Shown here: piece by piece, positions 8,824-30,335 of the stretch
Position numbering within the stretch: position 1 is the first letter of the stretch
How the letters are laid out: every line of letters begins with the position of its first letter
Origin: Terramyces sp. JEL0728
Taxonomy: Eukaryota; Chytridiomycota; Chytridiomycetes; Rhizophydiales; Terramycetaceae
DNA: 33,926 nt
Direction: 5' to 3'
Assembly: GCA_027603945.1 (NCBI GenBank)
Contig: JADIIU010000134.1
Coordinates: 1 to 33,926 of the forward strand
Translations under genes and position numbers: made by a program
Notes under the pieces: generated by a model
The model's input: the letters and a program-made list of their open reading frames with translations, nothing else
Told to the model about the DNA's origin: nothing
Databases searched by the model: none

Positions 8824-9391
8824 ATGGTCCGTATCTCTGTCCTCGCTGATTGTCTCAAGAGCATTGTTAACGCTGAAAAGGCTGGAAAACGTCAAGTTCA
8901 AGTCCGTCCTTCCTCCAAGGTCATTGTCAAGTTCTTGTCTGTTATGCAAAAGCATGGTAAGTCCCAATAGTTTCGCATGTATAACTGGATGCTGTCGGAT
9001 AATATCAATGGATATTCATCTTTTAAGCATGCGATATAACAACGTGATGTCTTACAACTTGAATATCGTTCAAAAGAGTTCAAGATTTATAACAACACGA
9101 CATTTCACCAAGGACTTTACTAATTCTTTAGGTTACATTGGTGAATTTGAAATCGTCGATGACCACCGTTCTGGAAAAATCATTATCCAGCTTATTGGTC
9201 GCTTGAACAAGTGTGGTGTTATTTCACCAAGATTCAACGTCAAGCAAAAGGATATTGAAACCTGGATCAACAACCTTTTGCCATCTCGTCAATTCGGTTT
9301 CCTCGTCTTGACCACCTCTGCCGGTATCATGGACCACGAAGAAGCCCGTAGAAAGAAGACTGGTGGTAAAATCCTTGGATTCTTCTACTAA
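8824..9391 (+). CDS. RPS22: Ribosomal protein uS8 (Rps22/RPS15A), with one long intron
   Basis: Exons 8824-8956 and 9132-9391 join to 393 nt, giving 130 residues, the standard length of eukaryotic uS8. The joined protein begins [14 protein letters not shown] and keeps family blocks such as [32 protein letters not shown] and [14 protein letters not shown], ending in GKILGFFY. It is a core protein of the small ribosomal subunit. The 175-nt intron (GTAAGT...TTTAG) is phase 1, splits the Gly codon of KHGYIGEF and has a TACTAAT branch-like site 7 nt before its final AG. It is about eight times longer than every other intron in this window and appears to carry an H/ACA snoRNA. AATAAA follows the stop. 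Confidence 0.97.
8974..9105 (+). ncRNA. Candidate H/ACA snoRNA inside the uS8 intron
   Basis: The fold is hairpin-hinge-hairpin-tail. Hairpin 1 is closed by CGCATG 8974-8979 with CATGCG 9028-9033 and topped by AATATC-aatg-GATATT (9001-9016), with GATG 8988-8991 able to pair CATC 9017-9020. The H box ATATAA (9034-9039, fits ANANNA) follows directly. Hairpin 2 has basal CGTG 9043-9046 with CACG 9096-9099, an 11/11-nt internal loop, and upper stem CTTGAA 9058-9063 with TTCAAG 9079-9084. ACA is at 9100-9102, followed by three nt. Upper stem 2 ends 15 nt before ACA, matching the 14-16 nt rule for a pseudouridylation pocket. If read by that rule, the pocket predicts a target near AUAAAU-UN-UUGUAAG; no rRNA match was checked. 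Confidence 0.6.
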
Positions 9392-9923: not shown

Positions 9924-10250
9924 ATGCAAGATCAAGTAAAGAAGCCACTAAACGCATATTTCTACTACCGAAAAGCAAAACGCAACGAAATAATGACAGA
10001 GCATCCAAATATAAACTCTATGCAAGTTGCAATAATAGCAGCCAAGCAATGGAAATCGGAACCAAATTCAGTGAAGCAAATATACAGGCAGATGTCGAAA
10101 AAAGCCTTTGAGGAGCATAAAATCAATCATCCGAATTTCATATGGCAGACAGGAAAGCGAAAGAGAGACGATTCTTATATTGTAAACTTGCAGTGCAATT
10201 ATGAAGTCTTTGATGACCTCGTGAAGGGTTTTCTGGAGGAGTTTAATTGA
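9924..10250 (+). CDS. HMG-box DNA-binding protein, copy 1
   Basis: 108 residues, mostly one HMG box (about residues 5-75): KKPLNAYFYYRKAKRNEI, a central W (KQWKSEP) and IYRQMSKKAFEEHK...HPNFIW. The pattern resembles the MATA/sequence-specific HMG class, in which the box bends AT-rich DNA in the minor groove. A short C-terminal motif (FDDLVKGFLEEF) is shared with the next gene. No intron interrupts the box, unlike in its neighbour. The start is the first ATG after the TATA box. The role is probably transcriptional; target and pathway are unknown. Mating-type function is possible, as MAT HMG proteins are of this class, but nothing here proves it. Confidence 0.8.
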   Translation: MQDQVKKPLNAYFYYRKAKRNEIMTEHPNINSMQVAIIAAKQWKSEPNSVKQIYRQMSKKAFEEHKINHPNFIWQTGKRKRDDSYIVNLQCNYEVFDDLVKGFLEEFN

Positions 10251-10570: not shown

Positions 10571-11065
10571 ATGAAAGCAAATGCAAAAGTAAAGAAACCA
10601 CTGAACGCATTCTTTTTCTACAAGACTGTACTTGCCATCTAACCATAGGAAAAGAAAAAAGAGATTGTACAAAGTTACACCATAGCCAGTTCAAACGAGA
10701 TTTCAAAAATAGCTGCAATATTGTGGAAGAACGAACCTGAATTCGTAAAAGATATCTATCGCAAAATGTCTAGGAAAGCGTTTCAAGAGCATAAGCTGAG
10801 CCATCCTGATTATGTCTGGAATGTAGGAAGAAAACATGTCGAGTCGGAGGATGGATCAGCGGTATCCAGTAAAGAAAGCGTGCAGTCGTCTCCAGAATAT
10901 CCACTGCTAACCTTTCGTACCTTGGACGAATTTATACAAAGCTTTGTGCAAGAATTCCGATTACCAGCTCAACTTGACTCTGTGCAGTCAATCGAGCGAT
11001 ACTACTATCCTGTATTTGATCAAGGCTTACTCTCTTTGCAACCTTCTCACCAAAATAATAATTGA
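10571..11065 (+). CDS. HMG-box DNA-binding protein, copy 2, with a 21-nt intron
   Basis: Exons 10571-10627 and 10649-11065 join to 474 nt, or 157 residues. The 21-nt intron (10628-10648; starts GTACTT, has CTAAC, ends CATAG) interrupts the HMG box just after KKPLNAFFFYKT. Once removed, the box aligns with copy 1 without a gap (KKPLNAFFFYKTEKKKEI against KKPLNAYFYYRKAKRNEI). If retained, the intron gives an in-frame TAA. The box continues through ILWKNEP and IYRKMSRKAFQEHK...HPDYVW. The C-terminal motif LDEFIQSFVQEF is shared with copy 1, followed by a longer tail. The two genes are a tandem duplicate. The stop is only 26 bp from the convergent Rab GAP stop. Confidence 0.85.
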
Positions 11066-11091
11066 TGCCTTTATTCTATAAATAAATATTC

Positions 11092-14000
11092 CTACTGCGA
11101 TTTGCTTGTCCATACCACTTTCACTCTGCCCAAATTTTGGCCTATACTCCATGTACGTTCAAAGTATTCAACAAATACGCTTTGACTCAATACTGCAAGT
11201 AGAAATTCGTTGAAGCTAAGCAAAAAGGATGATTTGTTGTCTTTTCCTGCTTCGTGCTTGTTGTTGCCCATTTTTAAAGCTGCAGATAAAAACGAAGACA
11301 CTGCTCGTAAATATGTTTCCTCCTCTCTTTCATCCACTTTTTTCGATTTTTGAAACATTTCCAAGAACGAATCCATGATTGCTTTTAGTTCTACGTTATC
11401 CAAGTATCCATCTCCATCCAAATCATATAGATCAAACATGAACCGTAAGCGAGTGTGCAAAGGTTGTTTCATTAATGCATCTAGTACGTGAACCATTGCT
11501 GCAAGGTCCACAATAAATCCAATATCGTTGACATCTGCTCCAACTCTTTTTTGGCGCTGTACAAAGTTAAACTGAAAAGAACAGTAATAGTAGATACGGT
11601 CGATAATAGACATGGCAAACTCTTCAGCTACATTTTCATTGGATTTAGCACCAGACAGACCTTCAAATTAGCTTGATAATACCTGTTGCAGTCTTGTGGA
11701 ACGGCGACACCACTTTAAAAATCCTCCTAAAATCGCTGAGAGAGATTGTTTTCTGCGTTGGGTCATTTCGTTGAGTTGAAGAGAGTGTATATCGTCTTAA
11801 TAACCCCCAGCCTCCTTTGTTTGATAGTATAACTCGCATAGATAACTCTGACTCCTTTTCTGATTTAGACAACTGTGCCGATTCGCCCTCTGGATCTTCC
11901 TCTTCGTCCCCGTGAATATATTCCAATCTTCGTACTTCATCATAAACAAATCCAACTTCATCATTGCTTAGAGATACTTGTTCGCACAGTGTGCGCACTT
12001 GAGACTTTCGGTTGGTAGCTTCCATACGATGTACAACCGCTAGTCTATACTTCATTCTACAGGTTTCAATAACTTCAGTCGTAATCAACGGCCCGAGAAC
12101 ATTACAAACATCATTCATCAATACATTATAGAGCGCTTTGCCGGTCAAGGTTGTAACTTCCCCTTTGGTATCAACTACCGTGGGGGAAACAGGCGAATCA
12201 GGACTTCCCTCTTGAATTCCCAATCTAGAAAAAAAGTCTTTCAACACGGCAACGAAAATGTCATCGTCCTTACCACGTTGGATTAACGATGCCTCGTTGA
12301 CTTTTAGAACACCAACTGCCACCCAAAATAAGAATTTTGGCCCTTGCAAAAAGAAACTATCCAAAAATTTGATGGCTATGTGAAGGGAAACCGAATTTAG
12401 ATACAAGCAAAGGAACCACGGCACTGAAAATGTAGACAAGTCCAATTGAAGTTTGTTTAAATGCGCGGATAAGTTTGGCAAGTGTTGAGCTACCAGCTGC
12501 GTAAAAACCGATTGATCAACCACACTTCCAACCAGAGTCTTTGTATAATGGTCAGGCAGTAGTCTTTCGACAATCACACCTACAGTTTAATTCTCAGTTA
12601 CAAAGCAACCAAAAAGCATCTTCTTCTCGCAAATACAGCAAAAGCACCGCGCTAATGATATTTAGGGCTTGCGCATATCCAATTGCAGGGTTTCTCCAAG
12701 AAAATGCAGTTAAAACCCTTCTAAGTGCATCGATTCCGACAGAAGTCTGATACGCCGGGTGTTCTGGTAAACTTCTACAGTTAATTCCTTGTACCTCCTG
12801 ACATCCTTTTCAATTTCTTCAGCAAAAGGATTAATATTATTCTCGTTGTTCTTCAATAGGTCTTCGTAGTACCCTGCAGGTGGTTTAGAGTACCAAGCTC
12901 CTGAAATCAGCATCCAAAAATCCCCTCTGTAAATATCCGGCACTCCATTTGTAGAAAGAATTAGTTCCTGGAGTAGTTTTACATCTTTTACAATACAGAC
13001 ATCTCTTCCGAGTTTTTCAAAATACTCTGACCATTTGTTTACATCTGATTGAGTAGAGCGATCTATTTCCGAATTGGCTTTTTTGCCAACCTGTGGAAAT
13101 ACAAACTTCAAGCCACTGGTTTGAATATATAATTTTGTTCCGTCCAAATCAGCGATTTGCGGTGAATCAACGGAAGTTTGCGACACACTGCTTGTTCTTC
13201 TATGCCTAATTTTGATATCAGCCATTTGTGGGCCATTTCGCCCGCCAATAATCATATCCTCATCAAATTTCCAATCAACGGTCTTAATTCTGGCGAAAAG
13301 TTCATCAGTTACACGATCTCTGCTCTTACTACTTGTGAAACTAAACCAGATTTCCATTTTGTTTTTGGTAGAAATTACAAGGTAGCCTGATAGTGATATA
13401 GACAACTTTAATCCTGACGTTAAAGCTGTTGGCGGCTGTTTCTTTACGGATACGATATGTGCATAGGGTATTACAAGGATTGTTTGTGGGTCAGATTGCG
13501 AATCAAACAGCATGGAGGTAGAACTGACTTGGTTTACAAGTACAGGCGGTATAGAACAGAAGTTTACAAAATTCTGAGAAAGGTACAGGTTTCCCGCAAC
13601 AAACGACGAAGTTGATTTAATGAATAAATGCGAGGGAGATTCTTCCATTGTGATTGTTTCCTGATAAGACAATCGAAACAAGTTTCTAAATTCCAAATTT
13701 CTAATTTGATCGTCCAAATCTGGCAATGAATTTACAATCGCGGTTTTGATGTGCGAGTATCTAGCAATCAGTATATGCTTGGTATCAGCAGGATCTAACT
13801 CTGCTTGTGACTCTTGATTCATTTCAAATATATCTGTTTCTCCTAAATTTGATTCCTTCACTTTATGGCTGGTGTCATTCCCGTACTCCTCCCTCGACCG
13901 CACCATCAACAAACCACCCCCTTTATTCATTACGTTGTTGCTCAAATCACCAGTCAAGTTGGAGTTGTTCTTTGAAAACATCTCTGATGAAGCCGATAGC

Positions 14001-14865
14001 GAATTTTCAGCTCCTTTGATCAACCTGTTCATGGCTGCATTACATAAACTGCATAATATTCGAAATACTTCTTTTCTGTCTGCAGAAAGGGTAAACTGAT
14101 ACTGCATAAGGAATAATTACCGATTGGTCTTTGGTGCCTACTTGAATGGAATCCATGGCGAGTAACTTTTTGGAATTCACAATTTCCAGAGAGTTGACAT
14201 CGCGATAGAGGACAGAGAGCTCAATATCCGGCTCGCCTGGTTCCGGTTTGTCTTTCTTTCCAATAAAATAGAATGTATTTCTACAGATACTGAGGCTTCC
14301 TCTTATGTTATTTTCAGAAAATGAACATTCGTACACTGCGTTACCCACCAATTACCGTTCAATAAAACATCATCTTCTGCATTGAATTTACTGTTTAAAA
14401 TCAATTTATATTCCGCCAGTTTGGATTGGGCTGCGACTGTTTGCGGGTCTACATTAACAACACTTACTAGCGTGTTCCAAAACCATTTCTTCAAATTGTT
14501 TCAGCAACAGCTGGTCAAATTGCTCTGTATTCTGCTTCGACGCTTTCGAGTCCAGCTTGTTTAGTTTCATCAAATAGTTCTTTTCAACCCAGTTCCAATC
14601 CTAAATTAAAATAACTCACTTGATGAATCTTTTCAAACGTATCGTCGACCGCAATCACATACTTTGCTTTCTGCGTTTGCAATATAATCCTAAAATCGTA
14701 TTCCGAAACTGATTTCTTGAACCCATCTTTTTGAGTTGATAAACTTGAAAAGAATGACCGGAGCGTATCTGGTTTTTTAGATTGGAGTATAAAGTGTGTG
14801 TTTCCTGCCTTGTCTTGCCAACTTCCTGCTGGTAATGTCGACTGGTCTGTTGGCTTTATGAACAT
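11092..14865 (-). CDS. GRAM-TBC-EF-hand Rab GTPase-activating protein (TBC1D9/Gyp2-like)
   Basis: Eight exons (14865-14620, 14600-14468, 14448-14356, 14335-14121, 14101-12795, 12774-12602, 12579-11683, 11660-11092) join to 3633 nt, or 1210 residues. The seven introns are 19, 19, 20, 19, 20, 22 and 22 nt. Two GRAM domains lie at about 137-250 and 365-495. The Rab-GAP TBC domain spans about 620-840 and has both catalytic fingers: IEKDVRR (IxxDxxR, split by the 12775-12794 intron) and GYAQ (YxQ). The C-terminal EF-hand loop is [12 protein letters not shown]. By family, it stimulates GTP hydrolysis on Rab proteins in membrane traffic. The start ATG at 14865 is chosen because MFIKP... aligns with the family N-terminus; the open frame runs further upstream only from a TTG. 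Confidence 0.93.
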
Positions 14866-14892
14866 GAACGCGAACTGAAACTTTTTTCCAAC

Positions 14893-15306
14893 ATGACACT
14901 CATTTTGCCTCCACAATATTCCAGAAGAATATTATTTGTCGCTCACTTTATTTGGATATCAATCATAACAGCGATTGCACATGAATTATATTTTTGTGCT
15001 TTGCTTTGCTTTATTGTCTGGGTAACTTCAATTAATTACTGGAGCCATCCTATCAAAGGATTACGGAGGACAATCGATATTCTGTGTGCTAGCTTGGGCT
15101 TTTTATACCATTGGATACTAGCTTACGGTAGTATCTATCAGCTGCAATACTACATGGTAGTGCTAACGGGATTCTTTTTGTATTTCTTGGCCAGACAGTC
15201 CAATAATCAGAATTACAGCTCAATGTTCCACTGCGGCCTCCATATGTGCGGAAATATCTCCAATATCATATTATATTTGGGGTACAAGAAGCAGAGCATT
15301 CAATAA
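14893..15306 (+). CDS. Small four-helix membrane protein, function unknown
   Basis: 137 residues with hydrophobic segments at about 10-28, 31-49, 65-80 and 84-100, plus a Cys/His-containing C-terminal part (MFHCGLHMCGN, about 114-124) leading to a further hydrophobic stretch. I do not recognise the family. Its ATG lies only 27 bp from the divergent start codon of the Rab GAP gene, so the two must share a promoter or have overlapping 5' leaders. It is convergent with the FAD monooxygenase, 70 bp apart at the stops. Intronless. Real coding is likely from the regular hydrophobic pattern and the absence of another explanation. Confidence 0.6.
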   Translation: MTLILPPQYSRRILFVAHFIWISIITAIAHELYFCALLCFIVWVTSINYWSHPIKGLRRTIDILCASLGFLYHWILAYGSIYQLQYYMVVLTGFFLYFLARQSNNQNYSSMFHCGLHMCGNISNIILYLGYKKQSIQ

Positions 15307-15376
15307 ATCAATTTATTTTTCACATGCCAAAATATAAAGTTGAAAGCTGACAATTACTGTCATCAAGTAGTAATCA

Positions 15377-17068
15377 TTATTCGTGCATGACTCTGGTTGA
15401 AAATAACGAATTTGGATCCCCAGTTTCTTCAACCACACTGAATCTTTTAAAATACTTGGCAAGTGCCCCAAAGCCAAGACAAGCAGTCACCAACCCAACA
15501 TACCCGTCAGGCCGAATCACCATAATCCCCTTCCTCAACTTGCATTTCGCATACAAATCGCGCTCATCAATCGGAACAGCAATCATATCAGTTACTTGCG
15601 GGAATTTCTTCAACACACTCTCACGATTCCGCAAGCCATATTGCATAGTATCGTTAGAATCAGCAAAGTAAACTACTTTAAATCCAGGTGTCAATGTCAA
15701 GAAATCTTTTTTCAAAGAATCGAGTGTTCGCGGATTGAACCTTTGTCCTGCACCATACTGCCCATCAAAGTACAGTTTGTTGTAAGCGTACCCGAGGTAC
15801 GACGTATATTCATCACACGACAAGAGCGATTTGTAAGTAGTGGAAAATCCTTGGCCATAGATTCTTTGAAAATGCTGCAATAACGTAAATGGGGGCAAGT
15901 TCATCGCTGAAAATAGAAGGGATTTGCCAATTGAAGACATTTTAGTAAGCATTGCAGTCATACCATCTATTTGTTTAGTAACTGCTTGAAGAACTAAAGT
16001 TGCTGCCCGTCGTTCTTCGTCATACGTTTCCAGCAATTCTAGGTTTGCAAACCCTTGAAGGACCATGGCTAGTTTCCAAGCCAAGTTGTTAGCATCATGA
16101 ATAGCAAAATTCATTCCAGATCCAGATTGAGGCGAAGTGAGATGAGCTGCATCGCCAACTAAGAATACATTCCTTCCATTCCCAAACCGGTCGACAATCC
16201 TGTTCTGTATCCTATACCCAGTCTTCCAAATAACCCTTTCAAACTTGAGGTCAGGATCTAAACGAGTGTTGGCCAAGTTGAGCAAGAACGAATCGGAAAG
16301 CTCTTTGTCGAAATAATATTGATCATGGTGATCTTTAGTTTCAGACAAGTACGGTTTTACGTCATCTGGTTGAACGTCCATACCTACCATCCACGTATTG
16401 TCCGGCATCCCCATGGCTATGGCAACACCTGAAGAGTTACCATACAAATTCAATCTGTTTCCAGACACATTCTTTAGCCCAGCAGCTTTAAAATGCGCTG
16501 CTACAGCAAGGGAGCCAGTTTCCCCAACTAATTCCAAACCTAATTGTTTCCTGATGGTAGATTTACCACCTTCGCAACTGACCAGATACTTTGTATAGCA
16601 CGTGATTGTTTCGTTGTTTGAGGTTATGGTTGCTTGGATTCTGTCTTGTTGATCATCAAATTCAATAATCTCTGAGGAGAAATGCACTTTGCCGCCTCTA
16701 CTTGTAATGTAATCCAGCAGCGTCTGTTCGACTAACCACTGTTCGGTACTTAGATGTCCTTTAGCCTCAGACAAGTCAGGTAAATCCAGCGCATTGGCGT
16801 TCAAAACAACATCATTCGACATCACAGTCGCATAATTAATCCAGTTTCCGTATTGTTTTAGTACATCAATTGCGTTGCCGTAACCTTCGAGTATCTCTTG
16901 AATTCGGATATGGAGGACTGACGCTTTAGTGTACTTGTGTTGAGCAGGTTGTTTTTCAAGGAGAAGGATTTTTGAAGGTTGGATTCCTTGGCGTAAGAGT
17001 TCGGATGTCAGTGTTAGCCCGGCAACTCCTGCTCCCGCTACTATTATATCGTATTCTTGCATGGACAT
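15377..17068 (-). CDS. FAD-dependent aromatic-ring monooxygenase (class A flavoprotein)
   Basis: 563 residues. An N-terminal Rossmann motif GAGVAG (12-17) with acidic E38 at the end of beta-2 binds FAD. The DG-like motif reads CEGGKSTIRKQLG (about 165-177). The second FAD motif VFLVGDAAHLTSPQSGSGMN (301-320, GD at 305-306) is very clear. The C-terminal third has the thioredoxin-like region of phenol-hydroxylase relatives, with MVIRPDGYVGLV. By family it uses NAD(P)H and oxygen to hydroxylate an aromatic substrate; the substrate cannot be read from sequence. A second ATG two codons in is an equally possible start. Intronless, about 166 bp downstream of the F-box/WD40 gene on the same strand. 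Confidence 0.88.
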   Translation of the reverse strand: MSMQEYDIIVAGAGVAGLTLTSELLRQGIQPSKILLLEKQPAQHKYTKASVLHIRIQEILEGYGNAIDVLKQYGNWINYATVMSNDVVLNANALDLPDLSEAKGHLSTEQWLVEQTLLDYITSRGGKVHFSSEIIEFDDQQDRIQATITSNNETITCYTKYLVSCEGGKSTIRKQLGLELVGETGSLAVAAHFKAAGLKNVSGNRLNLYGNSSGVAIAMGMPDNTWMVGMDVQPDDVKPYLSETKDHHDQYYFDKELSDSFLLNLANTRLDPDLKFERVIWKTGYRIQNRIVDRFGNGRNVFLVGDAAHLTSPQSGSGMNFAIHDANNLAWKLAMVLQGFANLELLETYDEERRAATLVLQAVTKQIDGMTAMLTKMSSIGKSLLFSAMNLPPFTLLQHFQRIYGQGFSTTYKSLLSCDEYTSYLGYAYNKLYFDGQYGAGQRFNPRTLDSLKKDFLTLTPGFKVVYFADSNDTMQYGLRNRESVLKKFPQVTDMIAVPIDERDLYAKCKLRKGIMVIRPDGYVGLVTACLGFGALAKYFKRFSVVEETGDPNSLFSTRVMHE

Positions 17069-17234
17069 GCTGGCTTTTCCTTGGCTTTATACTTTTTTGT
17101 AGGTGAATCACATCCTCGTGGTGCCACCTCATATATACTATCTGAAACAACTTACAGTCGGAGGCAGTACTCTAACTGTCGTTATTCATCGAGATCCTCA
17201 AAGAATTCCAAACATAGCCACTAATTCATTTTAT

Positions 17235-18516
17235 TCATACACTAAATATACCCATATCTTCCCCATTGGTAAAATCCCACATAATAATCTTATAATCCTA
17301 ATATTAATAATTGTTACCTGGCCACTGCTAATAATTTTAGTGCAATCAATTTGCAGATGAAAGACCCAACTACGGTGTGCATCCTTCATGTCTAGTATCA
17401 GATTTCCTCGAGTATCCCATACTTTGATTGATTGATCGTAACTCCCACTAACTAAAAAGTGTTTGTTGAATGCCAATGTGCGAACTAGCTCTGTGTGTTG
17501 TTCCAGAACGTTTACTAATTCGCCTGTATTCGCATCCCATATTCGTATGGTTTTATCGTTTGATCCGCTGATGATTGTTTTACCATCAAAATGAACACAT
17601 GCCAAGCCTCGAGTATGTCCTCTAAATTCTTTTAGCATAACGCCTTCAGTTATATCCCATAATTTTATAACACCGTCTCCACTAGCAGAAACAAGCTGTG
17701 TCTCGTGCAAGTAAATGCAATTCACAGCTGCAGAGTGGCCTTCAAGTGTCTTTACAAGTGCTCCTGTTTCTAAATCCCAAATCTTGATTGTAAAGTCTTT
17801 GGAGCAAGAAATAATATGCTTATCGCTAAAGCGAATATCGAGAACTGGAGCTCTATGCCCAGTCAAGACACGCAATTGCTCTCCGGTTTGAGTGTCCCAT
17901 ATTCTAATTGTGTGATCAGAACTACCAGAAATAATATACTGGCTGTTGAATTGTAAACACAAGACTGATCCTTGATGTCCCACCAGAGTCTTGTAGTTTT
18001 TATAGCTCTTTAAATCCCAGAATTTGATTGTCTTGTCTCTCGAGCCACTGATAATCTTTTCAGAATCAAATTGGATGCAGTAAACTGCGTCTGTATGTCC
18101 AGCCAAGAATTTAGCTTCAACATGCCCATTCCTCCAATTATCATCCAACCTAATCCTCTTTTGGTATAATTCCTTCCAATCTCCAGCAAATTGTTTAGGA
18201 ATATTAAATGATTTCAAGTAAAACTGTTTCCATACCATTGAATCGTTCCAAACATGGCTCCATTGCTTGGAAACCAGAAAAGTGGGATCAGTGATGTTTG
18301 TAAAGCCCAAGATATATGTACCCAGCTCATGAGGAAGGGTAGAAATGAAATCTAAATTAGCAACGGATACCTATTTTCAATACATCTTCGCCAAATGCAG
18401 AGTCAGTTGCGCTATGAGGTTCGTCGTCGTCTGTGACAATCTCCTTGATCAATAGTTTAGAAGGTGGAGCTTTTTTCAACCACCTATAATTAGGAATCAA
18501 AATACTTTTTAAACAT
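17235..18516 (-). CDS. F-box/WD40-repeat protein (SCF ubiquitin ligase receptor)
   Basis: Four exons (18516-18506, 18483-18371, 18351-17318, 17297-17235) join to 1221 nt, or 406 residues. Introns are 22, 19 and 20 nt. The F-box (FISTLPHELGTYILGF..., about residues 43-85) is split from its leader by the second intron. Seven WD40 repeats follow, each ending in a WD-type dipeptide (FWDL, IWDT, IWDL, LWDI, IWDA, VWDT, MWDF); the last needs the third intron removed. The architecture is that of the Fbw7/beta-TrCP/Met30 group, which binds Skp1 through the F-box and phosphorylated substrates through the propeller. Which orthologue it is cannot be said. Exon 1 is only 11 nt (ATG plus 8). Confidence 0.9.
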
Positions 18517-18845
18517 TGGTTTTTTTAGGTTTCGTTGTTTGAAAAACTCTAAAAATACCAATCAGCCACTTGGGCTGTATGTTTCAGGAGAGATCACTCT
18601 TGTAATAATACTTTAGAGGGTGATAGAAATATACAGCTGCGTATCTATCATTGGTTGGCAGTATTCCTATGGCTGTCTACACTTTGCCATCTGCCTATGA
18701 TCATTGGCAAATTCAAGGGCTTAACAGCACATTGACATTTCATTCACCATTCCTGCAAGATTGACTCGAATTCTCCGCCAATGATATCCAGAGTTTATGA
18801 TATTCGGATGTTCTACAAGCAGAGGGAAATGGGCAACAACAGTTT
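18517..18845. other. Intergenic region between F-box/WD40 and SGNH hydrolase genes
   Basis: 329 bp. CCAAT and ATTGG strings occur near 18559, 18654 and 18780, suiting the promoter of the minus-strand F-box gene. No gene is recognised. Confidence 0.35.
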
Positions 18846-19571
18846 TTATTTGAGAGAAGCAAGGAAATCAGTGACGATATCAGTCGCAATCTTTGCTGAC
18901 CGGTCATTAAAATGAGATCCGTCGCAGGTACAATAGAACCCTCTCGCATCACCAATGCTGTCATAAGAATAGAACCCAAACGACAACTTGTGCAAAAGGT
19001 AAATATAAATCATTCGTGGTGGATTAACCATAAATGCCAAGTCATGCGAAGCTATTTTGGTTGTGAGATTGTTCTTTCCGCACAGTTTCACCAGCGGAGT
19101 GTAGAAATCCATAAGATGGTAACTTGGCTGTGAAGCAACGATTTCATCAATGATCTTGTTGTAGGCGCGTAACTGGTCATTCAGCTTGGTATCTACGTGT
19201 TCCCCAATATGCTTGATATTCCCAATACCAATCGGTACAGTGCCATACTTTTCTTTCAAGATACCAAGCAGTTCCAAGAACTCTATTTTGAATTGTTGTG
19301 GAGTAGATTGTGGTCGGCCTTTCCTTCCTTCAGCAAAGAATCCCTTGGCCATCTCGGGAAATGAGGAATATACGTCATTACCTCCAGCGATAATAATGAT
19401 TGCTGTTGGGTTTGTAACTTGGAGCGTTTTCAATTGTTCAATCATCCCTGGTAGTTGTACTCCATTGAGTCCATGATTGTGGACCTTGAGGTCTGATGAT
19501 GCTAGAGAGTTTACCCAAGGAGTTCCCAGTGTGCCTGCAACTAAAGATGTTCCTAGTACTAGCAACGACAT
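18846..19571 (-). CDS. SGNH/GDSL-type hydrolase
   Basis: 241 residues. SGNH blocks are visible in order: block I GTSLVAG (S9 as nucleophile; the usual GDS reads GTS), block III GGND (63-66) with its oxyanion Asn, and block V DGSHFND (D217, H220) giving the catalytic Asp/His pair. The family hydrolyses esters of lipids, acetyl groups on sugars, or thioesters. The substrate is not evident, and there is no strong signal peptide, although the short hydrophobic start overlaps block I. Intronless. It is divergent from MDM34 across a 310-bp gap. Confidence 0.8.
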   Translation of the reverse strand: MSLLVLGTSLVAGTLGTPWVNSLASSDLKVHNHGLNGVQLPGMIEQLKTLQVTNPTAIIIIAGGNDVYSSFPEMAKGFFAEGRKGRPQSTPQQFKIEFLELLGILKEKYGTVPIGIGNIKHIGEHVDTKLNDQLRAYNKIIDEIVASQPSYHLMDFYTPLVKLCGKNNLTTKIASHDLAFMVNPPRMIYIYLLHKLSFGFYSYDSIGDARGFYCTCDGSHFNDRSAKIATDIVTDFLASLK

Positions 19572-19881
19572 GAAATAATTTGCAAAGAAAAAAGGAACAA
19601 TGGATGTTGGGTGTAGTCATGGATTAATCTCCTGCCATACTATTCTATCAAGCGCAAGAGTAATTCTGGCAGTTTATTGTTGCTCCAGAATATCAGCAAC
19701 AGCCAGCATGAGATATTATCTTGGTATTCTATCTCCAAGCAATTGCAGAATCCACACAGATTCGTCTTTCATTTCCCTTGCGTGCAATTTCCACTGTCTT
19801 TAGTGTCCGCCAAATATTCTTAATTGTGACGATGAATCACTGAAATATCCAAGTGGATATAAATTTTTCTGAAATCAAAAA
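19572..19881. other. Divergent intergenic region SGNH hydrolase / MDM34
   Basis: 310 bp between two divergent starts. Short coding-looking fragments exist on the minus strand around 19620-19760, but in-frame stops and the lack of consensus introns leave no usable gene. It probably holds the promoters of both neighbours. Confidence 0.35.
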
Positions 19882-21442
19882 ATGTCCTTCAGAGTGAACT
19901 GGCCATCATTCTCCAGTGATTTCATTGGAAAAGCAACAGAGCAGCTAACTACCGCTCTAAATACCGGAAAGAAACCGGAAAATATTGTTGGCGATATAAC
20001 AGTAACTGCCCTAAATATGGGGACCAAAGTAATTTCACGTTAAATATAGCCTCCTGATCTAGAGATTTTGGAAATTTCAGAGTTAATTCAGGATAGATTC
20101 AAGGGAATTTTCAAGCTTCAGTATCAAGGAGATGCTTCAATTGTTGTGCAAACTCAAGTACAGGCGAACCCGCTATCTACTCCGCCAAATGGAAGGATGC
20201 TAGGATCCAGGACAATGCTGTTAGCTCATCGACCCTTGGGTTATTCGTTTTTAATTTAGTTGTTCCAATGCAAATGCGGATTTCCAAACTCAAGCTCAAA
20301 GGAATCATTGTCCTGGTTGTAGACAAAGAAAGAGGAATCACTTTAGTGTTCAAGAACGATCCGCTTGAATCGGTCAACGTTTCATCCACATTTGATAATA
20401 TACCAAATATCAGACAATTGCTACAAAGACAAATAGAAAAACAGTTGAGGAATATGTTTCAGGAAGAATTGCCGCAAATGATCCACAATTTATCTTTGTT
20501 GTTGTTGCAAAAGGAAATCAGTAATAAGAAGGATGAAGACCAATCGCCTGTTCGCGAAACGAATTATTCAACTGAATTACCCCATGATTTGAAATGGAGA
20601 GGTATTTGTTTCTTATACAGGTAACGATCCGGTGTCTGGGTATAATTCAGATGAAGAGCGGAGCGGCTATATCCTATACAAATCACTAAACAGTTCAGTA
20701 GAGAACTCTGAACTTGGATTACAAAAATTGGTTGATTCCAGAAACAATTCAAGGATATTATTCGAAGATGATATGGAACCACAGGGATACTATCATGTAG
20801 GACTGGGCAAGATGTTGAATAATCAAGCCTTTGGTAACTGTTTTTTAATCAGACCTTAATGTTACTCCTCCAACACCGACAAAAAGATCAAGTTTTATTG
20901 GCATGTCGCCAATGGCCACCAGATCGTATCGTCCATCGAGACCCATATTTGTTGACGACGATACCGAATCAGTGCATTCAGCCTGGACCGCTCCGCCAAC
21001 ATCTAGTGTTCAAACATTGCAACAGACAGATGGAATACACTACCAACGGCCAAGTGTCCATAAACGTCCTTCAACTCTCTCAACTAAACCAACAGCACTT
21101 CGGCCACGCATGTCGCCAATCCAAGAAACGCCAGAAACATACCGAGTAATCTTGTCACCATCCGATAATGAAGTAACGGCACATTTAGCAAATCTAATGA
21201 CAAACTACCTAACGATATCACCCAACACACAAGATTTAAAGAACTTTACATTTCGAGGAAACTTGCCGTATGTCAACAGCCAAGTTAGTGTTGATTTGTT
21301 GGAAACCCAGAGTTTACCTGACCAGTTTAGTTATCGCAAGACTGTAAGGAGGCGAGCGCATCGAAGGGTGCATACTGTTAAAGTACCAAGTGGCATGTTT
21401 ACACCCAGTCGGCCTTCATCTGAAAACGGAGATGTAATATAA
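19882..21442 (+). CDS. MDM34: Mdm34, mitochondrial outer-membrane subunit of ERMES
   Basis: Five exons (19882-20028, 20050-20239, 20260-20601, 20621-20833, 20853-21442) join to 1482 nt, or 493 residues. Introns are 21, 20, 19 and 19 nt. The protein starts [14 protein letters not shown] and carries the SMP lipid-transfer domain over about residues 1-200, with typical strings [47 protein letters not shown] and [10 protein letters not shown]. By family it tethers mitochondria to the ER with Mmm1, Mdm12 and Mdm10 and helps move phospholipids. The C-terminal half is Ser/Pro-rich and ends in a basic stretch (RRRAHRRVH). Each intron break falls inside conserved text, so the gene looks disrupted unless spliced. 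Confidence 0.95.
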
Positions 21443-22057
21443 ATATTAAATTGTAACTGATTGCTAGTGTTATTGATTCTTGACTACAGGAGTGTAGAAA
21501 AATGCAAAGAAAGGCAACACACATTGGTGCATTCGGTGATTTCCCTTTGTGTCACTCATAGAGAATACTTGACAAGGAGCACCATAGGTTCATTACTGCC
21601 CACGATCGGTACTGCCTATGGGCACGTGAAGGTGTATTTCCGAAAAGCTGTTCCTAATAGTGGAGTTTGCTGGATTCAAACGCTGATACGAAATGCAATT
21701 TAGCATTCCCGACTGTTACTGGTTAAAGTTATTTGTGCAGCTGAATTCAAATATCTGCGGTAAAGCTCTATGGTGCTGTTGAATAATTCAGGACTTGCCT
21801 ATTTCAGTTTCGCCGGCAAAGAAAATATAATTTGCAATACTGGCAGGAGCTTCAGGTAGTGATCTCGCATCCTTTGGTAATCTTATCCAACAGTTGGTAT
21901 TTTTGGCAATCTAACGGACTAATTTGAATTTCAAACTTTTGTTCTTTTTGAATCCTGAAATATTCAATTCGGTACCACACCAAAAAGGCAGCGAAAATTC
22001 TCTTTTGCTTCGCCCACAAGATATATAACTGTCGAAAATCAAGCAATATCAATCAAA
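21443..22057. other. Intergenic region, no gene recognised
   Basis: 615 bp between MDM34 and the four-repeat Cys-rich gene. No conserved coding text was found on either strand, also when allowing for 19-22-nt introns. A 15-bp string at 21674-21688 recurs at 28465-28479. The far end holds the TATA box of the next gene. Confidence 0.4.
22022..22028 (+). promoter_or_regulatory. TATA box of the secreted Cys-rich gene
   Basis: TATATAA ends 29 bp before the ATG at 22058. Confidence 0.45.
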
Positions 22058-22555
22058 ATGAAATTCGCATTATTATCTATCGCTGCCATGGTTTCTGCCA
22101 ACCCGATGCCACAAGCAACTGCTCAAAACTGCCTTCAACAATGTCACAAGATGTTTCCTTTTGGCAACCAAGTAGGTAAACTTGTCCAGTGCCAAAATGT
22201 TTGTAACGCTTGTGCGCAACAGTGTGTACAATTATTCCCATTCGGCAACCAATTGGGAGAACAAACCCAATGTATCGCGCAGTGCACTCCGCAATCCGTT
22301 GTACCAACTGCCACCGTACCAGCACCACAGCCAACTGCTCCTGCCCCGCAACCAACTTCAACTATTTTTATCAGCTGTGATGCCAAGTGTGCTGCTCAAT
22401 TCCCATTCGGAAATCAACTCGATCAGCGTACCGCGTGCCAAAATACTTGTCAAGCTTGCCAAACTAGTTGCCATAAGCAGTTTCCATTTGGAAACCAAGT
22501 TGGAAAGTTTATTACTTGCTTGGAAACCGTCTGCCAAGTCAATCCATACCAATAA
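22058..22555 (+). CDS. Secreted Cys-rich protein with four FPFGNQ repeats
   Basis: 165 residues with a short signal peptide (about 1-14, MKFALLSIAAMVSA). Four copies of the pattern C-x3-C-x3-F-P-F-G-N-Q-x6-C-x3-C follow, two before and two after a Pro/Thr/Ala linker (about 88-103); the last copy has x4 between its final two cysteines. FPFGNQ is invariant in all four. Each unit has four cysteines, which suggests a small helical hairpin pinned by two disulfides. I do not recognise the family. A secreted or cell-surface role is inferred from the signal peptide and cysteines; effector, lectin-like or wall-associated roles are all open. Intronless, with its own TATA box. Confidence 0.8.
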   Translation: MKFALLSIAAMVSANPMPQATAQNCLQQCHKMFPFGNQVGKLVQCQNVCNACAQQCVQLFPFGNQLGEQTQCIAQCTPQSVVPTATVPAPQPTAPAPQPTSTIFISCDAKCAAQFPFGNQLDQRTACQNTCQACQTSCHKQFPFGNQVGKFITCLETVCQVNPYQ

Positions 22556-22793
22556 ATTTCTGGTGAATGTATACACTCGTTAGTAATTACCATTTGATTA
22601 TATCCGCAGACAATTGTACATATTACCACCAGCACACTCTTAGAACAAATAGATGCTGCGAAAATTGTCTCTTTTTGAGAGTAGTGCTTGTCTTTGAGTG
22701 GTTCCTTGAACCATGCGTAAATCAATCCGACTTGTACCAGATTGTTGCGGATAAAGTCTCGTGATGCCATTTAACTTGCCATAAAATTCAGAA

Positions 22794-23477
22794 ATGACAG
22801 ACAATTTGAAGTTGTACACTTACTGGAGAAGCTCTTGCTCCTGGAGAGTCCGCATTGCATTAAACTACAAAGAAATCGCATTCGATCCAATCCCAGTGAA
22901 TCTGGTTAAAGGGGAACAAGTACAACTAACTAACCCAGAATACTCGAGAATACAAGGAAAAGAATCCAAATGCTGTTGTCCCATCGCTATTATTCCCTGA
23001 TGGAACTATTGTCATTCAGTCCGCAACAATCATGGAGTTGCTGGAAGAATTGTATCCTCAAAAACCATTGTTACCGTCCGACCCATTCAAAAAAGCAACA
23101 GTAAGATCTATTTGCGCATTGATTGGCTGTGATATCCAACCAATTCAAAACCTCCGGGTATTGAATTATGTCGGCGAGACTAAGCAACAGTGGGCAGCTC
23201 ATTTTATTGATCTCGGATTCCAAGGTACAACGAATTAATGTAGCATTGGAAGCGTTATTGATTAAACATGGCGGTAAATATTGCTATGGGGATGGAATAA
23301 CACTCGCTGATGCTTATCTGGTTCCCCAAGTCTATAATGCCAAAAGGTTGATCTCGTTAATGTAGATGGGGCGTTGATATGAGCAGATATCCAGTTATTT
23401 CTGCAATTAATGACAGATTGGTCGAGTTGGAGCCATTCAAAAAAGCAGACCCTTCTGCCCAAGTAGATGCGCAATAA
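22794..23477 (+). CDS. GSTZ1: Maleylacetoacetate isomerase (zeta-class glutathione transferase)
   Basis: Four exons (22794-22919, 22939-23224, 23244-23346, 23366-23477) join to 627 nt, or 208 residues, the normal family length. All three introns are exactly 19 nt. The spliced protein has the zeta-GST glutathione signature [14 protein letters not shown] (active-site SSC at residues 13-15), then [35 protein letters not shown] and [13 protein letters not shown]. It catalyses glutathione-dependent cis-trans isomerisation of maleylacetoacetate to fumarylacetoacetate, the penultimate step of tyrosine and phenylalanine breakdown. None of the introns is a multiple of three, so each causes a frameshift if left in. 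The other tyrosine-degradation genes are not in this window. Confidence 0.96.
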
Positions 23478-23578
23478 ACTATTTTTCAACCGCCGTATGA
23501 TAGGTTTTACTGAGAATAGCTATATAATTCCTCCTATGTAATATCGCGAAAAAGGAGATTCTTTTTTTCCAAGCTAAA

Positions 23579-23951
23579 ATGGTAACCACAAACTCAAACT
23601 AGTCTGAAGTAGAAGAAACAATAAAGCGCTTGTCGTCGCACAAAGGAGTAGAAGGAATAGTAATTGTAAATATGGAAGGTACTACCCAGTAACAAAAGGA
23701 ATACCTATTCGTACAACTCTAGACCACGAAAAAACAATCCAACATTCAGCGCTAATCACTCAGTTAACCGCAAAAGCAAAGAGCATGATTCGTGACTTGG
23801 ATCCGCAGGTAATTTCTACTAATTTAGAATGATTTGACTTTTTTGAGAATTAGAAGCAAGAAACATGAGATTATGGTTGCTCCTGGTAATCTAGATTAAC
23901 GCAGATAAGGAATATATTTTAATTGTGCTACAAAATCCTCAACACCATTAG
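23579..23951 (+). CDS. DYNLRB: Roadblock/LC7 dynein light chain, five exons
   Basis: Exons 23579-23581, 23603-23678, 23699-23808, 23828-23885 and 23905-23951 join to 294 nt, or 97 residues, the standard length. Introns are 21, 20, 19 and 19 nt. The joined protein begins [20 protein letters not shown] and contains [47 protein letters not shown] and LIVLQNP, all typical of roadblock. It is a homodimeric light chain of cytoplasmic and axonemal dynein that binds the intermediate chain. Exon 1 is just the ATG. Unspliced, no exon stands out as an ORF. It lies 101 bp downstream of the isomerase on the same strand. Confidence 0.95.
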
Positions 23952-24429
23952 GGTTTAATAAATTATTTCTTTAATGTCGCGTACTAGTTTTGAATCTGAC
24001 ATAATTACACTGCAGAACCTTTGTAACATGACTGCAATTGCGCATTTAGATAACGAAAGTGTAACTATGAGATAAACGCGACTTCTGGAAAGACCTGCGA
24101 TAAATTTCCCGCTTGTGATCTAAAGGTTAGATAGTTCACACATGACTTTAAACGATTCAACTTGACTTTGTCACCTTGGCGCACTGACCAAGTGGGATTT
24201 CAAGAATCTAGGCGGTGCATGTTGATACTGCTCACATTGGTAATTTTCAGCCAAACCCAATGAAAAACACATATTCGGCCTTCCGCGACAAGTGTGTTGC
24301 TGCCGAACTGTCGACTCTATGTATTTTTCTTGCAATCACAAATCAAACCACCCTATTTGAAAGTACCAGATTGCTCAGCCACAGATTTACCGCATATTCA
24401 TAAAGCGTCTGCGGCGAAAAAATTTTGAA
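23952..24429. other. Intergenic region, no gene recognised
   Basis: 478 bp, AT-rich. A single TTCnnGAA dyad (TTCAAGAA, about 24200-24207) is present but isolated. No conserved coding text was seen, also when allowing for 19-22-nt introns. Confidence 0.4.
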
Positions 24430-25329
24430 ATGAAAGTTGCATTTGAAGAAACAACAATAGACATTGACGACAATATCCCTCCTCCGCTACCACCTAGAAA
24501 GAAACCACAGCCAACAGGCTATTTCTCGAGCTTTTTCAAGCAGCCGGAGCAGACTGAGCAAACTTGGTTGCAACGTACATATTACTCTTTCTTTAAAAAT
24601 CCAGAGGAACCTACACAAGATATCCCACTTACTACCCACACTAGAATACAATCGCAGCAATCAATGACCAACTCCACTATATCAATAGAATCTGCAGAGC
24701 AATGTACATTATGTCTTGGAAGTAGAACATTCAACAACGAAAAGTGTCCGTCCTGCAACGGAACCGGAAGTGCCCAATTCAAACAAAACATTTTCGACAA
24801 ATCCGTGTCTTATTTTTCAAACTTGTTCAAACCTAAACCAAAGAAACAGCCAGAACTGCCAACTATGCATGCAAACAACTCTCACGCTTCTGTTTCAACT
24901 CTTTTGACTCAAGAAAGTGTTGAACTCTGCTCGCTTTGCACAGGCACTAGAATATTCAACGGGAAAACGTGTATTAATTGCGATGGTAAAGGAAGAGCTC
25001 ACTCCAAAAACAAATTTGTTTCGTTCTTTGCTGATATGAAAAAGAATATCGATCAGTGGTTCCAGAAAGACGATAAACCAGAGCAGTACCTCAAGCGGAG
25101 CAAAATTCTATCTGTAAAAACTCTAAAGAAAACCAATTCTTTAGATCCTGGTGTTGCTAGTGACTGGGCGAGAGAGAAAGTTAATGCTCCGACTGCTCCA
25201 AAGAAAGTAATATCTAGACCTGCTGCTATTACTTCGCCTAAATTGGCTGCATTGTTTGAAGACTTGCAAGCTGCATCTGAAATTGATTTTACTGATATTT
25301 GTGTGCGCCATACTCATTCTGTTGCATAG
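24430..25329 (+). CDS. Protein with two DnaJ-like CxxC zinc clusters and a Pro-rich N-terminus
   Basis: 299 residues, no signal peptide, no obvious membrane segment. A proline-rich start (PPPLPPRKKP, about 17-26) looks like an SH3 or WW ligand. Two similar clusters follow: C92-x2-C95-x10-C106-x2-C109-NGTG and C167-x2-C170-x10-C181-x2-C184-DGKG. Each repeats the CxxCxG motif twice, as in the DnaJ zinc-binding region, so each probably binds one zinc. Between them, short aromatic repeats recur (YFSSFFKQP, YYSFFKNP, YFSNLFKPK, FVSFFAD), suggesting an old internal duplication. The C-terminal third is basic. No J-domain is present. I do not recognise the family; a chaperone-adaptor or scaffold role would be a guess. 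Confidence 0.7.
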   Translation: MKVAFEETTIDIDDNIPPPLPPRKKPQPTGYFSSFFKQPEQTEQTWLQRTYYSFFKNPEEPTQDIPLTTHTRIQSQQSMTNSTISIESAEQCTLCLGSRTFNNEKCPSCNGTGSAQFKQNIFDKSVSYFSNLFKPKPKKQPELPTMHANNSHASVSTLLTQESVELCSLCTGTRIFNGKTCINCDGKGRAHSKNKFVSFFADMKKNIDQWFQKDDKPEQYLKRSKILSVKTLKKTNSLDPGVASDWAREKVNAPTAPKKVISRPAAITSPKLAALFEDLQAASEIDFTDICVRHTHSVA

Positions 25330-25397
25330 TTGCATTAAATAAATTTATTATTGTCCTTATGGTAGTGTGATGCATCGGATATTCATCATGTCGGAAA

Positions 25398-25403
25398 TGA
25401 CGT
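25398..25403 (+). promoter_or_regulatory. TGACGT element upstream of seven-TM paralogue 1
   Basis: TGACGT (a CRE/bZIP half-palindrome) ends 15 bp before the ATG. A longer string, TGATGCATCGGATAT, lies at 25368-25382 and resembles TGACGTATCGGATAT upstream of paralogue 3 (28677-28691). Confidence 0.35.
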
Positions 25404-25418
25404 GAACTTTCCATTCTA

Positions 25419-26882
25419 ATGATATTCCAGTCACTTTGGACAACCTATGAATGTCAAGGAGTCCCGTCTGCATTTCTAATCTTCAACGATACATTAGACA
25501 CTGATCCGCAATTCTATTACTGGCTAAACTATGTCCCATATTGCGGGTACATTAATTTTCCAACGGCAACTGGCGAGGGCTGTTGTGTAAATTCTATAGA
25601 TTTAGCACAGGTGGATGGAAGCCAGGGTAGAACTAGCTGGCTGAACACGGAATTGGGTGATGTTTGGACAGTTTATAACGCGGCACACTCAAATGCCAAC
25701 GGACACACATATTGCCAGATAGCAAATACATCATTGGGCATATACGACGAGCCTGTAACTGCGTACTATATGAATAATAATCAATGTATATACGGGGGTA
25801 TCTGCAATGACACCACACTCACTATTTACCAAGAAATAACATGCCAAACAGCGATTGAATCGTTCGCAATTCAAGGCGGGCTCAATGAATATCAATCCAG
25901 CATTGGAAATGTGTCGGTATCTTTATTCACGTTTAATGAAGCCAGAAATTATGTAAATTGGATTACAAGCGCACCTGGAGGCGAAATAGTCAACCAAACA
26001 AAGACCCCGTTCGACAAATTTGCAGTGTTCTGCTTTGCAATATCGACATTAATAGCTATTGGCGTTTTTGGATACTATCTACGAAAGAAAAAACCATATT
26101 TCTTGATTATGGCTGCAATCTGTGTTGGCCGTACTATACTGGTAACCACATACTCTTTCACTGTATACTACGATACTTTGGCTTTGGCATGGACAGATAT
26201 AGTGATTGATGCTTCAAAAATTTATTATACTTTTGGAAATTATATTACCTGTTCAATGATCAACAGAATATTGAATATTCACAATGATTATAGAAAATTT
26301 ATTCTGTATATATTGGTTACTTTGGTCTACATTGGACTGGAGTGGCCCTTGTATATCCAAGATTCTCTCCTAATCAAAGCAGTTTCTGGATATATAGATT
26401 TGGACTATTACTACAGTATAAGCGCGACAGCATATTCAGCGGACAGTATCTACACATCATTCACATATATTTTCGATATTTCTCCAACTATCATTTTGTT
26501 TCTCAAGATTGTCGCACAGCAAATTCTCGTGCGTCAGAGAAAAGGACGGGAGACAACTCTCCATTCGTTGTTCCAAATGTACTGGAAAGTATTGGTTATT
26601 TTTGGTCTGCAAATCAGCCTTTGTGTGGTACAATTTCTATGCAATTACATTAAGAGTGGCACAAATTGGCTAGGAAGTGATCAAGCGGTACTTGATATGG
26701 GTGCGATCAGTCTCGCAATTCAAAATAATAATTATCTGCTCATCATCATATTGTATGAACATCTTTCATCATACGCTGCAGAATTTGTCAAGCCAAACAG
26801 AAAGCCAGTGGCTATGGCACCAGCAGAGTCTGTAAATAATGTGGAAAGGACTGCAAAAGTTTCCGGTACAATGAAATTGTGA
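25419..26882 (+). CDS. Seven-TM protein with Cys-rich N-terminal region, paralogue 1
   Basis: 487 residues. The N-terminal 200 residues carry eight cysteines (12, 42, 55, 56, 99, 123, 129, 142) and several N-glycosylation sequons, followed by seven hydrophobic segments from about residue 201 to 455 and a short polar tail. The start MIFQSLWTTYECQG is shared across the family; no signal peptide is visible. I see no DRY or NPxxY motif and do not recognise it as a known receptor class. A surface receptor or sensor is the natural inference from a disulfide-type N-terminal region plus seven helices. Closest to paralogue 2 (shared WTTYEC, GEGCC, NNNxCIYG). Intronless. Confidence 0.8.
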   Translation: MIFQSLWTTYECQGVPSAFLIFNDTLDTDPQFYYWLNYVPYCGYINFPTATGEGCCVNSIDLAQVDGSQGRTSWLNTELGDVWTVYNAAHSNANGHTYCQIANTSLGIYDEPVTAYYMNNNQCIYGGICNDTTLTIYQEITCQTAIESFAIQGGLNEYQSSIGNVSVSLFTFNEARNYVNWITSAPGGEIVNQTKTPFDKFAVFCFAISTLIAIGVFGYYLRKKKPYFLIMAAICVGRTILVTTYSFTVYYDTLALAWTDIVIDASKIYYTFGNYITCSMINRILNIHNDYRKFILYILVTLVYIGLEWPLYIQDSLLIKAVSGYIDLDYYYSISATAYSADSIYTSFTYIFDISPTIILFLKIVAQQILVRQRKGRETTLHSLFQMYWKVLVIFGLQISLCVVQFLCNYIKSGTNWLGSDQAVLDMGAISLAIQNNNYLLIIILYEHLSSYAAEFVKPNRKPVAMAPAESVNNVERTAKVSGTMKL

Positions 26883-26930
26883 ATCATTGCAAAAGATAAT
26901 AAAAATCTAGTGATGATGCTGCATTTCAAA

Positions 26931-26937
26931 TGACGCG
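26931..26937 (+). promoter_or_regulatory. TGACGCG element upstream of seven-TM paralogue 2
   Basis: TGACGCG ends 20 bp before the ATG, a one-base variant of the TGACGT element found before the other three paralogues. Confidence 0.25.
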
Positions 26938-26957
26938 TATAGTAATTTCTCCGACGA

Positions 26958-30297: not shown

Positions 30298-30323
30298 AAT
30301 TTACAACTTTTTAACCTTTTGAT

Positions 30324-30329
30324 ACGTCA
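30324..30329 (-). promoter_or_regulatory. ACGTCA element upstream of seven-TM paralogue 4
   Basis: ACGTCA ends 6 bp before the ATG. With its flank it reads GATACGTCA, the exact reverse complement of TGACGTATC at 28677-28685. Confidence 0.35.
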
Positions 30330-30335
30330 CTTTCA

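Follow-up and report, generated by a model that had tools for sequence, protein, structure and literature searches.

Introns of 19 to 22 nucleotides as the rule in the sampled parts of a probably fungal nuclear genome

Introduction

In this study, we focus on a stretch of DNA of 33,926 nucleotides (nt), contig 134 of a genome assembly of 15,016,339 bases in 231 contigs, which we will call the window, and on the extremely short introns that interrupt its protein-coding genes. A preliminary description, made from the letters of the window alone, had listed 22 such introns in six genes and had taken them for an entire class of fungal spliceosomal introns. We find that introns of 19-22 nt are indeed the rule in the sampled parts of this nuclear genome, and that their signature recurs genome-wide. 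They are, with little room for doubt, U2-type GT-AG spliceosomal introns that have shrunk throughout the genome to about the minimum length at which the two splice sites and a branch site still fit; at around 20 nt, they come near the shortest introns that are known to be spliced in any cell. To our knowledge, introns this short are the rule in nucleomorphs and ciliates, and we know of no fungus in which this is the case. The organism is probably a zoosporic fungus or a close relative of one.

The short introns are real features of the genome

The 22 segments of the window were extracted from their stated positions on either strand, and all of them were found where they had been placed, with GT and AG at their ends and with the announced lengths (19 nt for 11 of them, 20 nt for five, 21 nt for three and 22 nt for three). 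When their flanks are joined, an open frame results in each of the six genes, and the spliced totals agree with those given before: 474 nt for an HMG-box gene and 1482 nt for a putative Mdm34-like gene, both from the joined flanks; 627, 1221 and 294 nt for a glutathione S-transferase (GST), a WD40 and a dynein roadblock gene, from protein length (208, 406 and 97 amino acids, aa) plus stop; and 3633 nt for a TBC gene, given a start at 14865, which is also the start picked by our gene finder. The removal of the segments was further said to restore conserved protein. This holds for five of the six spliced products, which match Pfam families (HMG box, RabGAP-TBC with GRAM, WD40, GST and Roadblock); the Pfam search with the Mdm34-like product gave no match.

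A chance origin of such segments is rejected on the basis of a length peak on contig 1, of a genome-wide pattern excess and of decoy boundaries. In 200 kb of contig 1, stretches running from GTA to TAAY-NN-AG number 43 at 19 nt and 35 at 20 nt, against 0-12 at the other lengths between 12 and 119 nt; with one more base before the AG (TAAY-NNN-AG), there are 38, 35 and 12 of them at 20, 21 and 22 nt, against 0-10 elsewhere. Across the 15.0-Mb genome, the 19-nt pattern GTA-N8-TAAY-NN-AG occurs 3592 times (1806 + 1786), compared with 485 times (241 + 244) for the reversed control. We also used a gene finder with a simple gene model, whose codon usage was taken from 44 long open reading frames and whose intron length was left free, on a sample made of the same 200 kb of contig 1 and the window. 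Given the terminal dinucleotides only, it predicted 126 GT-AG introns, 69 of which were 19-22 nt long, whereas seven decoy boundary pairs gave 9, 5, 5, 4, 8, 2 and 7 introns of this size.

The self-trained version of the finder reached, after eight rounds, 360 introns, including 294 of 19-22 nt, and many of the longer ones were gene fusions. A second run used a length prior, and as this prior was learned from short introns, its result is no independent evidence on length. It placed 325 introns in its 130 gene models, 307 of them 19-22 nt and 316 of them 18-24 nt long, the rest being one intron of 16 nt and eight of 46-249 nt. At least one intron is present in 94 of the 130 models, and each kb of coding sequence holds about 1.8 short introns on average. 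Scaled up from the sampled 1.6% of the genome, this would extrapolate to a total of some 20,000 short introns.

Splice junctions in conserved proteins and in gene copies

The junctions can be placed on solved protein structures. Five proteins, namely roadblock, GST-zeta, GPD1, the methylcrotonoyl-CoA carboxylase beta subunit and dynamin, have 22 junctions covered by PDB alignments, and 21 of these lie within ungapped alignment. Roadblock aligns with dynein light chain roadblock without a gap over residues 1-94, through all four of its junctions, the first one being at the extreme end of the sequence. GST-zeta is aligned with maleylacetoacetate isomerase across its three junctions, with a 2-residue gap 2-3 residues away from the first. 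All five junctions of GPD1 and all four of the carboxylase are ungapped against their solved homologues, as are five of the six covered junctions of dynamin, whose seventh lies outside the alignment. For these tests, five of 11 further proteins were run against the PDB; nothing matched DDX49 at the strict cut-off chosen, and CFAP53, a coiled coil, was left out of the junction count.

Gene copies provide a second view of the boundaries. In the near-identical copies L026/L027, the predicted introns (121 nt) contain two 1-nt indels, each of which changes a 21-nt intron to a 20-nt one, and the exons (2241 nt) contain none; the remaining four indels are outside the gene models, and one of them is a terminal overhang. 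Two tandem alcohol dehydrogenase (ADH) genes of contig 1, which are 79% identical, differ by the presence or absence of a 22-nt intron at its exact boundary, and this intron is the sole internal indel of their alignment. Similarly, the HMG-box gene of the window and an adjoining intronless HMG-box paralogue (9924-10250) differ by a 21-nt intron, and the alignment of their proteins is free of gaps where the exons meet. Not every modelled intron fares as well in such comparisons: a 19-nt 'intron' modelled in one of the ADH genes is identical in both copies and is possibly a false model, and the lone 28-nt 'intron' modelled in L050/L051 carries one substitution and looks weak. The pairs L055/L057 and L039/L040 were also compared and are without predicted introns. 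These four pairs, L026/L027 included, are regions of 95-99% identity, and two of the pairs each lie within one contig, so they are recent segmental duplications or uncollapsed alleles.

Anatomy of the short introns

The mode of intron length is 20 nt within the 19-22 nt range. The bases before the 5' junction are A (49%), A (50%) and G (47%), and the intron then opens with G and T, followed by A (86%), A (53%), T (45%) and T (56%), which gives the consensus GTAATT. The +5 position holds 0.14 bit, and G is found there in 21% of the introns. Among seven position pairs tested, -1G and +5G vary independently (odds 0.92, p 0.78), +4A is weakly associated with +5G (odds 1.84, p 0.04), and -1G and +4A tend to exclude each other (odds 0.44, p 0.0005). 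Such avoidance is what would be expected from something that pairs across the junction, and it may be that contacts with U5/U1 are traded off against contacts with U6.

The branch-like motif that had been reported near the 3' end is real, and its position is fixed, with its A at nt 14-15 in 226 of 303 introns. The best motif is TAAT in 128 and TAAC in 75, both complementary to the GUAGUA of U2, and TTAT in 27 of the 303; 5-6 nt separate the branch A from the intron end in 232 of them. The branch A of YTAAY is found at nt 14 in 46 and at nt 15 in nine of the 76 introns of 19 nt, at nt 14 in 42 and at nt 15 in 31 of the 132 introns of 20 nt, at nt 15 in 23 of the 72 introns of 21 nt, and at nt 15-16 in 14 of the 27 introns of 22 nt. 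The introns end with TAG (197), CAG (60), AAG (40) or GAG (6; n = 303), and in 298 of 316 the splice site at the 3' end uses the first AG met from nt 14 onward. The space after the branch is too small for a polypyrimidine tract. U12-type introns carry ATATCC or GTATCC at the 5' site and TCCTTAAC at the branch; the consensus GTAATT with YTAAY is unlike these signals, and a U12 type is therefore rejected.

The splicing machinery as detected

The preliminary description had proposed an inspection of the splicing genes. U2 small nuclear RNA (snRNA), SF1 and U2AF65 are present, and U1 was not found by limited searches. The U2 snRNA scores 140 bits and carries the usual branch-recognition stretch GUGUAGUAUCUG. 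SF1 has its SF1-HH (helix-hairpin), KH and zinc-knuckle domains, and its gene is modelled with introns of 19, 15 and 20 nt, the 15-nt one being uncertain. Four introns, of 20, 20, 19 and 19 nt, are modelled in the U2AF65 gene; its spliced protein matches human RRM1-RRM2 at 9.1e-62, and the unspliced DNA scores 251.7 bits, under the curated value of 310.3.

For U1 snRNA, Rfam gave no hit among the 41 of 233 first-look candidates that were scored. The canonical U1 5' end, ATACTTACCTG, has four matches, compared with 12 in the control, and a looser 5' end combined with the 70K loop (TTACCT..ATCANGAAG) has three, compared with nine in the control; none of these is U1 by Rfam. A search for the N-terminal domain of U1-70K, which had no positive control, gave no candidate, and U1-70K was not recognised by eye in 19 RRM regions (about 18.5 kb). 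Among these regions, Y14, SF3B4, SF3B6, CBP20, PPIE, PABP and an IST3-like protein were tentatively named by eye. As for U6, with 48 of 1328 candidates scored, Rfam returned two weak matches under the cut-off (C199 and C111), which were rejected: they are in one duplicated predicted coding gene, where they overlap a 20/21-nt intron. A U6 pattern has three matches, compared with two in the control, none of them U6 by Rfam, and a Rfam scan of the window and of the 200-kb sample from contig 1 gave nothing at gathering scores. The 5.8S rRNA, sought as a taxonomic marker, was likewise not found in the assembly, so assembly gaps or the limits of the first look suffice to explain why it, U1, U6 and U1-70K are missing.

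Points that weigh against short introns as a genome-wide class

Several observations weigh against the picture drawn so far, and they concern its scope, the predictions behind it and the signals themselves. The length distribution is based on 234 kb of 15.0 Mb and on gene predictions, and the excision of the 19-22-nt segments from RNA is deduced from genomic DNA. The finder is blind to introns that are multiples of three (3n) and stop-free, and it fused some neighbouring genes via false long introns. Some of its models are absurd: four of 231 internal exons measure 12 nt or less, and an ARL-like gene received two back-to-back introns. In L026/L027, there is no substitution in 119 nt of intron, compared with 15 in 2241 nt of exon, so the introns do not show the higher rate. 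One dynamin junction, at residue 324, falls where the alignment is gapped. Just 182 of 316 short introns have a complete YTAAY whose A is at nt 13-17, and 238 of 316 have a TAAY/TTAY-like motif. With U1 and U6 snRNA not found by the limited searches, the spliceosome set is incomplete as detected. Within the 34-kb window, a crude motif count at 19, 20, 21 and 22 nt gives 10, 6, 3 and 6, compared with 11, 6, 6 and 6 for the reversed sequence. This count is indecisive; thus, within the window, it is the restored protein reading that carries the evidence, and the statistical proof comes from the genome.

Finally, and as a correction to the preliminary description, the genome also contains at least one long canonical intron. 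The gene for the ribosomal protein uS8 (130 aa; 8824..9391, plus strand) is interrupted by a 175-nt intron (8957..9131, plus strand) that runs from GTAAGT to TACTAATTCTTTAG and contains TACTAAT, and its spliced protein aligns with solved uS8 without a gap over 130 residues (PDB, 3.3e-68). It is the sole long intron verified, and it hints at a small second class of long introns with strong signals.

Alternative explanations

One alternative is that the segments are kept in the mRNA, as in-frame inserts or with programmed frameshifts, or that they stem from pseudogenes or from sequencing or assembly errors. In its favour, 75 of 316 short introns are multiples of three, and 11 of these 75 are without an in-frame stop. 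Their in-frame stops (64 of 75 in the real phase, against 39 and 40 of 75 in the other phases) were put aside because the finder cannot see stop-free 3n introns. Retention would nevertheless cause a frameshift or a stop in 293 of 303 introns, a count to be read knowing that the finder favours such cases. Moreover, the conserved proteins are continuous solely after removal, and the indels of L026/L027 that touch gene models are within introns, none being in exons, which makes retention very improbable. Another is a cut at the DNA level, in a germline-like genome with short eliminated sequences of the ciliate type, with whose size range that of the segments overlaps. The eliminated sequences of ciliates are bounded by TA and have no orientation, whereas the segments described here have GT..AG ends and a branch motif and are oriented with their host gene. 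All three standard stops are also used by the gene models, and we regard DNA elimination as next to impossible.

The introns and their splicing may also be real and the organism non-fungal, for instance another flagellated eukaryote such as an opisthokont relative or a member of a known tiny-intron lineage. Contig 1 encodes a CFAP53-like flagellar protein, and the best-scoring chains for GPD1 and the carboxylase are mammalian, well above yeast GPD1. The fungal label of the preliminary description is in turn supported by a protein in which the CBM_1 ('fungal cellulose binding') domain occurs three times, by the standard stop codons (88 TAA, 28 TGA and 14 TAG), by the presumed Mdm34-like gene, and by Hsp104, whose best match among solved structures is that of Calcarisporiella thermophila (1033 bits), with a ClpB1 chain following (973 bits). 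The fungal affiliation is thus supported and not proven, and a non-fungal host is unlikely, if still worth serious consideration. The flagellar protein, for its part, points to a zoosporic lineage.

A nucleomorph is rejected as the source, given the 15,016,339 bases of the genome and the genes for a mitochondrial-type carboxylase and a flagellar protein on contig 1.

How such short introns could be recognised

Coming back to U2-type introns reduced to near their minimal size, the distance between the 5' splice site and the branch is the fixed ruler, and most of the variation in length amounts to a base or two before or after the branch. This fixed distance suggests that recognition would proceed by intron definition, in a rigid and single step. 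U6 would contact about +4 to +8, and the helix of U2 with the branch would take up about nt 9-15, almost end to end with it, so that 19 nt would hardly leave room for the U1 and U2 small nuclear ribonucleoproteins (snRNPs) next to each other. U1 would then leave before U2 settles, or bind mainly the exon, or have a reduced role, and the weak +5 position, which has no preference for G, would fit reduced U1 pairing. With 2-3 nt from the branch motif to the AG, U2AF65 could not bind a normal tract there.

A more radical version would be that the lineage has lost or drastically remodelled its U1 snRNP, and that its roughly 20,000 (extrapolated) introns of 19-22 nt are recognised without the usual U1 pairing, U6, U5 and Prp8 reading the 5' site directly, 14-15 nt from the branch point. 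We hold this to be improbable, and the mutual dependence of -1G and +4A weighs mildly against it. If true, it would mean that an intron-rich nuclear genome is spliced essentially without U1. A spliceosome without U1 is known from the alga Cyanidioschyzon merolae, which has just a few dozen introns; here, the U1 components went undetected in limited searches.

Other systems share part of these features. In the nucleomorph of the chlorarachniophyte Bigelowiella natans, GT-AG spliceosomal introns are likewise about 18-21 nt long as a rule, and there are many per gene, but this nucleomorph is the remnant nucleus of an endosymbiont, with a few hundred kb. Ciliates such as the heterotrichs Stentor and Blepharisma (15-16 nt) or Paramecium (about 20-34 nt) have the same narrow lengths, fixed branch, GTA start and weak 5' site; they belong to another supergroup, and here the range is 19-22 nt and the three standard stops are in use. 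The introns of microsporidia, a possibly related lineage, start from about 23 nt and also have a short distance from branch to 3' site, but few of them are retained, in contrast to the density found here. Fungal introns of the Yarrowia type have just a few bases between the branch motif and the AG as well, but they are long, and their 5' splice site is strong.

This intron-rich genome, probably zoosporic and of fungal grade, would show how short introns can naturally become under intron definition in a lineage other than ciliates and nucleomorphs. It may be a useful test case for the amount of sequence that splicing requires, for the order of the U1, U2 and U2AF contacts on 19 nt and for the need for U1. 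There is also a practical side. Common settings of aligners and gene finders impose a minimum intron size above 20 nt, so that annotation would break the genes of such genomes into fragments or mistake them for pseudogenes.

Genes and introns of the window

The automatic gene finder exactly recovered 21 of the 22 introns of the window. The one it missed is the 21-nt intron (10628..10648) of the HMG-box gene (10571..11065, plus strand; 157 aa spliced, Pfam HMG_box 3.4e-15), probably because an extended model of the TBC gene overlaps the HMG gene. On the minus strand, this gene for a GRAM/TBC/EF-hand Rab-GAP (11092..14865; Pfam RabGAP-TBC 1e-46, GRAM 6.9e-12) has seven short introns: 14601..14619, 14449..14467 and 14102..14120 (19 nt), 14336..14355 and 12775..12794 (20 nt), and 12580..12601 and 11661..11682 (22 nt). 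The finder's model runs beyond the stop chosen in the preliminary description (11010-11095), with two candidate C-terminal short introns, and it is there that it overlaps the HMG gene on the opposite strand.

The WD40 gene (17235..18516, minus strand; Pfam WD40 7.4e-58), for which an F-box is a tentative further reading, has three introns, at 18484..18505 (22 nt), 18352..18370 (19 nt) and 17298..17317 (20 nt). The four of the Mdm34-like gene (19882..21442, plus strand), whose spliced frame is open and was modelled by the finder, are at 20029..20049 (21 nt), 20240..20259 (20 nt), 20602..20620 and 20834..20852 (both 19 nt). For this gene, the finder predicts a different end and a fifth intron (21312-21330) that is absent from the earlier list, as is a further predicted short intron at 33797-33818. 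The introns of the TBC, WD40 and Mdm34-like genes were checked by coordinate and recovered by the gene finder.

In the two remaining genes, both on the plus strand, the introns are supported by the PDB alignments and by the finder. The maleylacetoacetate isomerase/GST-zeta gene (22794..23477; PDB 2cz2, 1.8e-56) has three introns of 19 nt, at 22920..22938 (after residue 42), 23225..23243 and 23347..23365. The dynein light chain roadblock gene (23579..23951; PDB 9fqr, 4.8e-44) has four, of which the first (23582..23602, 21 nt) lies right behind the start codon and has its terminal TAG in frame with the ATG; the others are at 23679..23698 (20 nt), 23809..23827 and 23886..23904 (both 19 nt).

Other observations

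The protein with the three CBM_1 domains is encoded at 241-966 of the window; it looks secreted and has Thr-rich linkers between the domains. At 6127-8418, a single open frame combines weak ATP-grasp/D-Ala-D-Ala-ligase-like matches with a Major Facilitator transporter domain. Between 25419 and 31847, there is a tandem run of four intronless gene models of 472-508 aa, without a Pfam match, the last two of which share 71% DNA identity over 388 nt. On contig 1, about 10 tandem models of membrane proteins, with a seven-helix look by eye, occupy 14535-31090 (L005-L007), and four of them have a single 20-nt intron.

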